Positions 7,071-11,770 of a DNA stretch of 64,000 nucleotides are shown here, piece by piece. The notes under the pieces are model-generated. The model was not told the DNA's origin. It made no database searches and saw only the letters and a list, made by a program, of their open reading frames with translations. The number at the start of each line of letters is the position of its first letter. Within the stretch, counting starts at the first letter, position 1. The DNA lies in assembly GCA_945861665.1 (NCBI GenBank), contig CAMAVS010000006.1:62001-126000 (forward strand). The letters run 5' to 3'. A program made the position numbers and the translations under genes. The DNA is from Chitinophaga pinensis (GTDB lineage: Bacteria > Bacteroidota > Bacteroidia > UBA4408).

Positions 7071-7100
7071 CAAAAGTATAAATAAGTAGGTAATTACAAA
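7071..7100 (-). promoter_or_regulatory. Near-consensus Bacteroidota promoter of the small membrane-protein gene
   Basis: The minus strand reads TTTG, 18 bases, then TACTTTTG (7071-7078), a near-ideal -33/-7 pair for the Bacteroidota primary sigma factor. The -33 box overlaps the spacer and lies only 3 bases from the stop of the upstream metalloprotease gene. The leader to the ATG at 7045 would be about 20-25 bases, too short for a riboswitch. Confidence 0.65.
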
Positions 7101-8902
7101 CGAACCGCTTTAAAACTTACGCAAGTATTACTGTTAACAACCTTTACAAAGTAAATACCTGGTTTTACAGATAGCTGAGCGAATTGGAAATCACCTTTTG
7201 TTTCAATGGTTTCATTGGCAAGACACTTCCCTTCCGCATTGTAAATCGATACATTGCTAATACCATTTTCAGGAATAAACAAAGTTATTGGATGCACATC
7301 ATCAAAATAAGGAGCATTCAACATTTTTACTGCATTATTTGCAGCATCCATTTCTGAAATGGAGTTAGCACAACTGGTAACTAAGCCCCTTGTAAATAAT
7401 CGGTAACAAATGGGTGAATAATTTGCACCACCATTTAAAGCACTATCTGCCTGAATAAGTAATTGTGCCGCTGCTCTCATAGACATACCGCTTGAATAAC
7501 CAAACATACTTTCAATAACTAGTTCATCAATTTTTTGCCTACCAATATCGCCCCAAATTCCCATCATTGTTGCAGACCAAATTTCAGCATCTAAATACAA
7601 ATTATTTACAATATTTGAATAATCCTTATTGCTTTTAGTGGTTCTACCGGGCCAAAATTCATTATGCCCATCCCAACTGTAAACATTTTCCCATTTATAG
7701 GAATTTAAATAGCGTGAGTAGGACGAGGCAAAAAAATCACCGTTTGCTTCATCCAATGCTTGTCGTTGAGAACCATTATTTGTCCCAGGAGCAGCGCTAT
7801 ATGAAATAGCGTGACCGTATTCGTGAAGAATTACATCCGGATCTTCAGCATCGTCTACTCCACCCTCACCAAAAAACAATTCGGGAGGGAAATTGGCGGG
7901 TGAAAAAATGGAATTGTCTTGATCGTTTAAAGCATGCGTGTCAATCTTAATTTGATAGTTCATAATGGTGTTAAAACCAAGCGATTTAATATAGTTATGA
8001 AAGGTTGTTATATGATAAAATGTATTTACATCCTCAAACTTACCTACTGAACGTGTAAAATGAAAATTAGGAGTTTGATAAAACCAAGCAGGCGGTGTTG
8101 TATCTGGGGCAGAAAACTGATCAATGATAGCATAAGGACTTTTTAAAGCAAAAGTATCATTGCTGTAATACACTTTCATATTCACACTTACTCGCTGATT
8201 ATTTAATTGGGCAACATCTGAATCTGAATTATCGGCATAGGGAGCACCGTAAACTACTCCTGCACTGGTTATTGGATCAGGTAAAAAAACCGATGCCGAG
8301 ACAGTAGAATCAGGCAATGCGGCATAATAACTGTTTAAATCGTGTATGTATATTAAAGTACCGCTCTCATCTACCAAATGCTCTTTAAATTCAGAATCGG
8401 AAGTTGAAATAGTAATTTTCTGACATTTTATATATTTTTCATTCTTAAAAAAATAAGTTTGGGAACTTTCACTTTTCTTTAGATTATTAATAGAATTAAT
8501 ATACGCTTCAATAGTATTTTGCAATGGAAATATACCCACTATCAAATTGTCAGAAACGGAATAGGTATTATCCAAAATTGATGTAATACTGCCACGGTTA
8601 TTTGTATTTACCTTAACTTGGCCTCGGTAAACAGCAACATTGTTGTAAAACTGCTGAAACAACAGATGACTCCCACCTTTGCTTTCCGTTCTATTTAATA
8701 TTGTAATGTCACAATTCTTAAGATTTGAATTGTTCCTTTTCAAATAATTTGCTATTACGCTGTTCGACACATCACCAATATAAATGGTAGCAAAGGAACA
8801 AACGGCAAGTCGAAGATCAACAGGGTCAGTAGCAGAAACAGTTGATTGCTTTTGTGCAAACAACAAAAAAGGTAAAAAACTTAATATGAGTATCTTTTTC
8901 AC
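7094..8902 (-). CDS. Secreted thermolysin/fungalysin-like metalloprotease with T9SS sorting domain
   Basis: A 602-residue exported zinc protease. It has a signal peptide (MKKILILSFLPFLLFAQ), a propeptide-like region resembling an FTP domain (LLFQQFYNNVAVYRG), and a catalytic domain with HEYGHA near residue 357 and a downstream glutamate in DEANGDF. This fits the gluzincin layout of M4/M36 enzymes, in which two His and one Glu bind zinc. The last ~75 residues (FIPENGISNVSIYNAEG, ending CVSFKAVRL) form a T9SS type-A sorting domain, predicting surface attachment or release. The substrate is unknown, probably extracellular protein. It has its own candidate promoter and is followed after 48 bases by the small membrane-protein gene. 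Confidence 0.85.
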   Translation of the reverse strand: MKKILILSFLPFLLFAQKQSTVSATDPVDLRLAVCSFATIYIGDVSNSVIANYLKRNNSNLKNCDITILNRTESKGGSHLLFQQFYNNVAVYRGQVKVNTNNRGSITSILDNTYSVSDNLIVGIFPLQNTIEAYINSINNLKKSESSQTYFFKNEKYIKCQKITISTSDSEFKEHLVDESGTLIYIHDLNSYYAALPDSTVSASVFLPDPITSAGVVYGAPYADNSDSDVAQLNNQRVSVNMKVYYSNDTFALKSPYAIIDQFSAPDTTPPAWFYQTPNFHFTRSVGKFEDVNTFYHITTFHNYIKSLGFNTIMNYQIKIDTHALNDQDNSIFSPANFPPELFFGEGGVDDAEDPDVILHEYGHAISYSAAPGTNNGSQRQALDEANGDFFASSYSRYLNSYKWENVYSWDGHNEFWPGRTTKSNKDYSNIVNNLYLDAEIWSATMMGIWGDIGRQKIDELVIESMFGYSSGMSMRAAAQLLIQADSALNGGANYSPICYRLFTRGLVTSCANSISEMDAANNAVKMLNAPYFDDVHPITLFIPENGISNVSIYNAEGKCLANETIETKGDFQFAQLSVKPGIYFVKVVNSNTCVSFKAVRL

Positions 8903-10080: not shown

Positions 10081-10836
10081 ATGATATTAATAAGGGGCAT
10101 TTTTTTACACTTCATACTTGTTTTATTTTTTGCTTGCTCACCAAAAAGCAAACTGAGCAAAATAGAACAATCGAATATTGAATTAAACAGTGGCAACAAA
10201 GAAGACAGTAATGTTTTAAAGGTCATAGCACCTTATAAAAACAAGATGAAGAATGAAATGGAAGAAGTGCTTATTATTTCAGAAAGCAGCGCTGTTAAAG
10301 GTGACCCTGAGGGTACACTGGGCAATATTGTTTCGGATATAGTGTTAAAGCAAGGAAATATTAAGTGTGCCGAAGCATACATCGAAAAGGTAGATATTTG
10401 CTTATTAAACAACGGTGGACTAAGGACCCCACTTCCAAAAGGGGCTATTACAACAGGTAAAATTTTTGAACTTATGCCGTTCGAAAACCAGTTGGTAATA
10501 TTAACACTAAGTGGAAAAAAAACACTTTCAATGTTTAATTACATTGCCTTTCAAGGTGGAATGCCTTTGGCCGGTGCAACAATGACAATAAAAAAGGGGA
10601 AAGCCACGAATATTCTTATAAACAATGTTGCGATTGATACATCGCTGACCTACCGAGTTATCACTTCCGATTATTTATCAAATGGTGGTGACAAAATGAA
10701 CTTTTTTTCAAGTCCCCAAAAAACAGAAACACTAAACAATAAAATTAGAGATGCAATTATTAATTATTTAAGAGCAGAAAACAAAAAAGGAAACACCTTA
10801 AAACCTGTATTGGATGGACGAATTAAATTTGAATAA
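10081..10836 (+). CDS. 5'-nucleotidase C-terminal domain lipoprotein
   Basis: A 251-residue protein that corresponds only to the C-terminal, substrate-binding domain of UshA-type 5'-nucleotidases. It shows NNGGLRTPLPKGAIT, then GKIFELMPFENQLVILTLSG, and near the end YRVITSDYLSNGGD. In complete enzymes these parts hold the nucleoside base between aromatic residues. The N-terminus is a lipoprotein signal (ILVLFFAC, then SPKSK), so export is by Sec with lipidation. The catalytic metallophosphoesterase half is the next gene, which overlaps this one by 23 bases. On its own this protein should have no phosphatase centre. Confidence 0.9.
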   Translation: MILIRGIFLHFILVLFFACSPKSKLSKIEQSNIELNSGNKEDSNVLKVIAPYKNKMKNEMEEVLIISESSAVKGDPEGTLGNIVSDIVLKQGNIKCAEAYIEKVDICLLNNGGLRTPLPKGAITTGKIFELMPFENQLVILTLSGKKTLSMFNYIAFQGGMPLAGATMTIKKGKATNILINNVAIDTSLTYRVITSDYLSNGGDKMNFFSSPQKTETLNNKIRDAIINYLRAENKKGNTLKPVLDGRIKFE

Positions 10837-11770
10837 CCGAAGGCAATTTATTAAGCAAAGTATATACGGAAGTATTGGAATTATTGGGTTAAACAGTATT
10901 CCTTTCGATATATTTGCAAAAAATGATTTGGTTAAAATAACAGTACTTCACACAAACGATGTTCACAGCCACATCGATCCATTTCCGGAAAATGACCCAA
11001 AATACCCCGGCCTAGGTGGTGTTGCGCGAAGAGCTACCTTAATAAAAGAAATACGAAGTGTTGAAAAAAATGTATTGTTGTTAGATGCCGGAGATATATA
11101 CCAGGGAACTCCTTACTTTAATAAATACGGAGGTGAACTTGAGTTAAAGTTAATGAGTCAAATGGGTTACGATGCATCCACTATAGGTAATCACGATTTT
11201 GATAATGGTTTAGAAGGTATAGTAAACCAACTACACAATGCGAATTTCCCTTTGTTGTGTGCTAATTATGATTTTTCAGACACCATTATGAATGGAAAAA
11301 CAACAGCCTATAAAATATTCGAAAAAAATGGCGTTAAAATTGGAGTTTTTGGTATTGGAATTGAATTAGATGGCTTAGTAGACAAAAAAACTTATGGTAA
11401 TACTATTTACCAAGACCCTATTGAAAAAGCAGCACAAACTGCTATTTTACTGAAAAAGGAATTAAAATGCGATTTAATTATTTGCCTATCACACTTGGGC
11501 TACAGCTACCAAAATAAAAAAGTGAGTGATTTTGTATTGGCAAAACAATCACGTTATATTGACTTAATTATTGGAGGACATACGCATACCTTTTTAGATA
11601 AACCTGTAAATGTCCGTAATCGTGACGGACAAGAAATCCATATTTGCCAGGTGGGTTGGGCCGGTTTAAAATTAGGACGTGTTGATTTTTATTTTGAACA
11701 AAATGGAAAGAAAAAAAGAGTAGACGGAAGTGCAATGAATGTGGTGAAAGGTATTGAGGAAAGGGGCTAA
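10814..11770 (+). CDS. Metallophosphoesterase, catalytic half of a split 5'-nucleotidase, Tat-exported
   Basis: A 318-residue calcineurin-like phosphoesterase carrying the di-metal motifs of 5'-nucleotidases in order: HTNDVHSH, LLDAGDIYQG, GNHDFDNG, CLSHLGYSY and GGHTHTF. It begins with a twin-arginine signal (NRRQFIK followed by a hydrophobic stretch), so it is probably exported folded by Tat. The UshA C-terminal domain is absent but is encoded just upstream as a separate lipoprotein; the ATG at 10814 lies inside that gene, giving a 23-base overlap in another frame. The two products probably act as one enzyme for scavenging extracellular nucleotides. The gene ends 6 bases from the convergent patatin gene. 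Confidence 0.9.
   Translation: MDELNLNNRRQFIKQSIYGSIGIIGLNSIPFDIFAKNDLVKITVLHTNDVHSHIDPFPENDPKYPGLGGVARRATLIKEIRSVEKNVLLLDAGDIYQGTPYFNKYGGELELKLMSQMGYDASTIGNHDFDNGLEGIVNQLHNANFPLLCANYDFSDTIMNGKTTAYKIFEKNGVKIGVFGIGIELDGLVDKKTYGNTIYQDPIEKAAQTAILLKKELKCDLIICLSHLGYSYQNKKVSDFVLAKQSRYIDLIIGGHTHTFLDKPVNVRNRDGQEIHICQVGWAGLKLGRVDFYFEQNGKKKRVDGSAMNVVKGIEERG

Follow-up and report, generated by a model that had tools for sequence, protein, structure and literature searches.

A conserved two-gene, reversed form of the UshA/CD73-type nucleotidase in Bacteroidota and its probable pairing outside the cytoplasm

The DNA analysed, called here the window, is a stretch of 64,000 nucleotides from a Chitinophaga pinensis contig (CAMAVS010000006.1). 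Two overlapping open reading frames on its forward strand each encode one domain of a nucleotidase. The product of the first (10081..10836, +; 251 residues), the C-half, is a lipoprotein with the substrate-binding 5_nucleotid_C domain only (PF02872, 2.4e-21). The second (10814..11770, +; 318 residues), the M-half, carries the catalytic metallophosphoesterase domain (PF00149, 2.2e-16) and a twin-arginine (RR) signal; PF09587 was also listed for it in the Pfam profile search, under the cut-off. The two frames have 23 bases in common (10814..10836, +), or 8 if the M-half starts at the in-frame TTG at 10829. The signal peptide of the C-half (10081..10137, +) runs through a hydrophobic stretch and ends at Cys19 of a lipobox (VLFFAC19), as in bacterial lipoproteins, and the protein is accordingly predicted to be lipidated. 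The twin-arginine motif of the M-half, R9R10QFIK, lies at 10838..10855 (+). An earlier note on this DNA had described a lipoprotein C-half followed, after a 23-base overlap, by a metallophosphoesterase, in an order reversed relative to UshA, and both statements were borne out. All fused open reading frames in which both domains could be placed read M then C (24/24), and no natural C-M fusion (Rosetta stone) was seen among them. The C-half gene is the single PF02872 match in the complete assembly of 2.49 Mb (completeness 99.8%), so that no fused UshA was found alongside the split pair. A neighbouring gene on the reverse strand (7094-8902, -) encodes a protein with an FTP propeptide motif over the cut-off; its M36 fungalysin and type IX sorting-tail matches are both under the Pfam cut-offs.

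The two halves were compared with E. coli UshA in alignments of 68 C-halves and 67 M-halves, the M-half of the window included. All nine metal and catalytic positions are invariant in the M-halves (9/9 positions, 67/67 sequences). In the window they are the metal ligands Asp49, His51, Asp94, Asn126, His227, His256 and His258 and the catalytic His127/Asp130 (10958..11587, +), whose roles we take to be those of UshA; the position of UshA Gln254 is occupied by His. In the C-halves, the equivalents of UshA Arg410, Phe429 and Asn431 are each kept in 68/68 sequences, as Arg115 (10423..10425, +; presumably a phosphate-binding residue, like Arg410), the base-clamp residue Phe134, and Asn136 (10480..10488, +) in the window. 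The other clamp residue, Phe498 of UshA, is replaced by Tyr in 68/68 (Tyr198), and Asp504 is kept in 60/68 (Asp204; both within 10672..10692, +). The phosphate-binding Arg375/379 of UshA have no clear counterpart, position 73 of the window protein being mostly Lys (60/68). As judged from these alignments, each half retains only its own share of the active site. Separately, Arg223 of the C-half (10747-10749) is invariant in 68/68 split C-halves, is Ala in UshA and is Arg in 3/9 fused relatives; it is a candidate for a second docking or active-site residue.

The M-half thus has the metallophosphoesterase domain of the UshA/CD73 family, and the C-half has the two aromatic clamp residues and the phosphate and ribose binders of a 5_nucleotid_C domain, with Arg375/379 not clearly matched. 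Members of that family are single chains with the catalytic domain before the binding domain, an architecture that is not found here. As the pair consists of two open reading frames in reverse order, we file it as a split variant and not as UshA. The curated UshA model NF007109 scored the halves at 58.7 and 130 bits, below its cut-off of 600 bits, which a single half can hardly attain because the model spans both domains.

Structure models of the two halves (pLDDT 95.9 for the C-half and 90.3 for the M-half) agree with this assignment. The C-half model matched the C domains of 2z1a, CD73 and UshA with Z of about 21-25, and the M-half model matched their N domains with Z of about 32-36. On 2z1a, the M-half fitted residues 28-311 (Z 35.7, rmsd 2.4, 268 aligned) and the C-half residues 290-531 (Z 25.3, rmsd 6.6, 219 aligned); the two models complement each other along the same solved chains. 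Taken by itself, the C domain (model 37-232) superposed on CD73 at 1.6-2.4 A. When the N-terminal part with the interdomain linker helix was included, fits were mostly at 6-10 A, which indicates that the helix is present and that its placing in the lone-chain model is not confirmed. This helix comprises C-half residues 43-60 (model 24-41; 10207..10260, +) and was located by alignment with UshA P351/F352; in CD73, the helix that joins the domains is 318-336 (PMC8677862, in the part available).

In sequence and in structure alike, both halves match 5'-nucleotidases best (2z1a, CD73 and its venom relatives). This argues against the idea that the halves do pair but act on another substrate, such as a 3'-nucleotide, a cyclic dinucleotide, a UDP-sugar or a CDP-alcohol. 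We consider that alternative possible, if on the unlikely side: the UshA, CpdB, NadN and SoxB models all match although their substrates differ, and neither half reached the NCBIfam cut-off of any of these four. It also draws on the Tyr at one base-clamp position, CpdB stacking the base between two Tyr (PMC8071527, in the part available), and on the predominance of Lys near a phosphate-binding Arg of UshA.

To describe the distribution of the pair, a PF02872 profile search was run on 296 genomes of the phylum, 157 of which had a match. Among the matches listed, the open frames fell into two classes, of about 240-383 and at least 490 residues, and 59 stand-alone C-halves were taken from them. 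At all of these first split loci (59/59) the C-half gene is followed on the same strand by an M-half open frame that begins at most 614 bases past the C stop; the distance is 427-614 bases at L049, L069 and L079, where a further gene may be present in between. One locus, L027, in which an M-like frame precedes a PF02872 frame, has the look of a fused gene that was disrupted and is not counted in the 59. A reverse search that started with the M-half confirmed 575 places, of which the best 80 were kept, and a C-half lies just upstream in 78/80 of these, including loci of Flavobacterium, Chryseobacterium, Hymenobacter, Pontibacter and Saprospiraceae. Of the two exceptions, one is at a contig edge and the other is Sinomicrobium oceani, which has its C-half elsewhere in the genome. 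Further loci showed C then M in 124/132 cases, a count that includes the window itself (L171, also numbered L001) and genomes seen before. Among rows set aside, L177 is a fused gene, L191, L217 and L241 have too little downstream contig, and L149 begins at a contig edge. Strong C-half matches listed in a search of 395 class genomes (E<=8e-58) are open frames of 241-389 residues, again with no C-M fusion among them.

Split pairs occur in Flavobacteriaceae, Hymenobacteraceae, Saprospiraceae, Chitinophagaceae and others. The earlier note had called for a survey of gene order in other Bacteroidota, and its outcome is that C then M recurs phylum-wide, beyond chance: the split form is a conserved two-gene variant in many Bacteroidota. 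One genome of the same family as the window (G298, with L177) encodes a fused two-domain protein of 570 residues as well as a split pair. In the M tree as in the C tree, the split sequences lie on one side of a branch (SH-aLRT 97), for which a single origin of the split halves is the simplest reading; these were quick trees of 57 rows (32 split, 25 fused), with long branches and an unsure placement of UshA.

The overlap of the two frames might suggest a pseudogene or an annotation artefact, that is, a single gene broken by a frameshift. We find this hardly conceivable, as each half has its own signal peptide and the arrangement is conserved across the phylum. A frameshifted UshA in particular is ruled out by the reversed gene order, since no frameshift could join the halves into UshA.

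Searching the 395 class genomes with models of both halves found both in 210, the C-half only in 4, the M-half only in 2 and neither in 179; hence 210 of the 216 genomes having either half have both. The threshold for the M-half (1e-50) was set beforehand and that for the C-half (1e-14) was chosen after seeing the data. With a C threshold of 1e-30 the numbers became 206 with both, 1 with C only and 6 with M only, and with 1e-3 they became 210, 26 and 2. The exceptions include two incomplete genomes (G449, 80% complete; G429, 78%), three with weak C matches (G401, G578 and G639) and one, G433 (95% complete, 360 contigs), with an M-half and no C match. In six genomes from about four lineages (three of genus g177, one of family f86, one of f115, and Sinomicrobium) the fetched stretches around each half lack the other. 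All six keep both halves (6/6), with a lipobox on the C-half and RR on the M-half in each. As both genes are kept when they are unlinked, linkage alone does not account for their joint retention.

Contact between the halves was looked for by mean-field direct coupling on paired sequences. Pairs with a C-half below 180 or an M-half below 250 residues were dropped, as were near-identical ones (258, then 242 kept; effective number 202). A single inter-protein outlier emerged, C-half position 53 with M-half position 55 (z 18.8), the next inter-protein pair being at 8.4. For reference, pairs within the two proteins reached z 27.2 and 14.7, and six shuffled pairings did not exceed 8.7. C-half residue 53 sits in the linker helix and M-half residue 55 comes after the first two metal ligands; in the window they are Lys53 (10237..10239, +) and Asp55 (10976..10978, +). 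The residues found were R-D in 91 pairs, R-E in 4, K-D in 49, K-E in 72 and others in 26. The pattern is matched in length: Arg goes with Asp, Lys is found more often with Glu, and Arg-Glu almost never occurs (4/95). A salt bridge of fixed span would be expected to favour these combinations, a long Arg with a short Asp and a short Lys with a long Glu.

Lys and Arg frequencies generally track base composition, close relatives are present in the set, and selection and testing of the pair used one data set, so that codon or composition bias, or phylogeny, might be thought to produce such a pattern with no contact between the residues. Independent pairs were compared on a tree built without columns 53 and 55. 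Among 21 such pairs differing in R/K, 12.5 changed as expected, 0.2 in the opposite sense and 8.3 showed no difference. The sign test gave a median p of 0.0005 (range 0.00006-0.02), a value that is uncorrected for the 1,776 pairs and descriptive, because the pair was chosen and tested on the same data. The rank is the better guide: on this tree, 53 x 55 came first of the 1,776 two-state inter-protein column pairs, with 12.5, well ahead of the next (7.5). Composition alone gives, moreover, no account of Arg avoiding Glu while Lys takes both. Bias or phylogeny as the source of the signal thus appears quite improbable.

The other inter-protein signals seem weak. C49 x M54 gave contrasts of 5.2 to 0 (median p 0.06), and positions 43-60 take part in 6 of the 25 top pairs (P 0.006, the helix having been chosen after the list was seen). 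Outside the fit, the six unlinked genomes carry K-E in three cases (one genus), R-D in two and H-D in one, with no R-E; Bacteroides finegoldii, also outside the fit and kin of two included rows of family f12, has K and E. The corresponding residues are Gln/Trp in UshA, and no charge pair was found at these positions in nine fused Bacteroidota relatives. These cases, together with the 26/242 pairs that are not K/R with D/E, indicate that the fold does not depend on such a bridge.

The earlier note also held that the halves leave the cytoplasm by different routes. Two types of signal are indeed present; the routes, Sec for the C-half and Tat for the M-half, are predicted from motifs, and one lineage departs from them. 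The strict lipobox pattern occurs in 123/138 C-halves, the window included. Most of the 15 others show a lipobox by eye, one (L087) being cut; L068 and L129 apparently lack the lipobox cysteine. The M-half signal contains an exact RR in 113/138 sequences, the window again included, RK/KR in 21/138 and neither in 4/138. The window M-half has the features of a Tat substrate, namely an RR motif and a hydrophobic stretch, with a TatC gene in its own genome (2.1e-67). It was not listed by TIGR01409, the NCBI twin-arginine model, at E<=0.5 or E<=1; in the latter search, where the window row began at R9, the model listed 37/67 M-halves. TatC was present in 59/59 split genomes searched, so the presence of Tat is uninformative as a reason for RR versus RK. 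An ordinary Sec-type signal without RR is found on the M-halves of family f12 (L048, L072) and of Bacteroides finegoldii (L309), and both f12 genomes (G238, G230) have TatC despite it. If the M-half tree is rooted on the fused rows, f12 is the earliest-branching of the split M-halves. This Sec-type lineage indicates that the pair can persist without different export routes; as far as the signals tell, the combination of lipoprotein and Tat protein is common and not obligatory.

Retention of the pair across genomes, together with the matched residues of the two partners, suggests a docking that rebuilds one active site. We therefore propose, with a probability of about 0.77, that the two halves are separate subunits of a UshA/CD73-type nucleotidase which pair outside the cytoplasm. 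The product would correspond to an enzyme that is otherwise made as a single two-part chain, its probable function being to remove phosphate from nucleotides outside the cytoplasm. The C-half, which carries the nucleotide clamp and the former interdomain linker helix, would leave by Sec, receive its lipid and stay tethered to the membrane on the periplasmic side. The M-half would fold with its metals and, in this organism, is predicted to leave by Tat. With both halves past the inner membrane, the C-half would dock through its linker helix on the M-half loop that follows the first metal ligands, the two being held in part by the putative 53-55 salt bridge. We infer that the complex would then work as UshA does, the C-half binding the nucleotide, presumably a 5'-mononucleotide, and a rotation of the domains bringing the phosphate to the site with the two metals. 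What is a covalent linker helix in fused enzymes would thus have become the docking element of a heterodimer. The view in the earlier note that the halves assemble outside the cytoplasm finds support in the conserved pairing, the co-retention when unlinked and the covarying residues between the two proteins.

Alternatively, the two could be independent proteins, the M-half a broad periplasmic phosphohydrolase and the C-half a nucleotide-binding lipoprotein for scavenging or delivery, which share an operon only because each handles nucleotides. Each half is predicted to fold well by itself, and the solved N domains of YfkN and CpdB are chains of about 335 residues. The isolated N domains of UshA and CpdB remain active on some substrates: that of UshA is reported to cleave ATP, ADP and pNPP but not AMP (Krug 2013, as cited in the available part of PMC8475336), and CpdB without its C domain has largely kept its bis-pNPP activity, its 3'-AMP hydrolysis being nearly abolished (PMC7922932, in the part available). 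The isolated C domain of CpdB is inactive (same source and extent). Independence is nevertheless improbable in our view, given the near-perfect co-occurrence, which extends to the unlinked genomes, the joint switching of the residue pair on independent branches, and the fact that the C pocket of UshA serves the metal site of the N domain.

By analogy with the partly active UshA N domain, the M-half may act on some substrates without its partner, and such activity would not refute pairing. A more tentative extension of the proposed pairing, and a doubtful one, is an enzyme with two modes, in which the free M-half would act broadly on ATP, ADP and diesters, and docking on the linker helix of the membrane-tethered C-half would fix it in place and turn it to nucleoside monophosphates, the ratio of the two proteins setting the substrate range. 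A domain rotation of 96 degrees is classic for the UshA-type enzyme. Were the two-mode reading true, the hinge of this rotation would be a joint between two proteins that is held non-covalently and co-evolves. The pair is in any case a natural setting in which to ask whether the family's large domain rotation depends on a covalent hinge, and positions 53 and 55 give specific residues to mutate.

Naming and survey rules bear on how such pairs are seen. In the one RefSeq record considered, NZ_OY725905.1 of Bacteroides finegoldii, the two proteins are called '5'-nucleotidase' and 'metallophosphatase'. The first name is given to the C-half (L309:2147-2932), which has no catalytic domain, and a name of this kind, as in that record, will mislead functional surveys. 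A 2023 survey of ushA-like genes counted only matches with an alignment score >150 and a query coverage >70% and, in the part of the article available, marks Flavobacteriia, Cytophagia, Chitinophagia, Sphingobacteriia and Saprospiria as '-' (PMC10454023). The split form probably failed these rules; its occurrence in groups so marked means that nucleotide salvage in a large group may be overlooked. Literature searches, with most subscription journals outside their reach, found no paper describing the split pair as a system. The domains and their fold are familiar; their natural occurrence as two genes in reversed order, with separate export, seems to be unrecognised as a system.

Among known enzymes, CpdB, a 3'-nucleotidase, is alike in architecture, whereas the best sequence matches of the halves are 5'-nucleotidases. 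Domains of CpdB and UshA have been separated in the laboratory by cutting between the same two domains; those constructs are truncations of a fused enzyme, whereas the split described here is natural, and the available parts of PMC7922932 and PMC8475336 contain no report of mixing the separated parts. Of the solved structures, CD73 and the Thermus 5'-nucleotidase (2z1a), each a single chain, rank among the nearest to both halves. In the alignments CD73 carries Glu at the M55 position and Arg at the C53 position; unlike the split pair, it is reported to be GPI-anchored. UshA, the periplasmic 5'-nucleotidase/UDP-sugar hydrolase of E. coli, shares with the pair the same two domains, the metal and catalytic residues, Arg410, Phe429 and Asn431, and its fold matches at Z 33-34 for the M-half and about 22-23 for the C-half. 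UshA, however, is one chain that reads M then C, whereas the split pair is two chains encoded C then M, a lipoprotein and a protein with an RR signal, with Tyr in place of Phe498.
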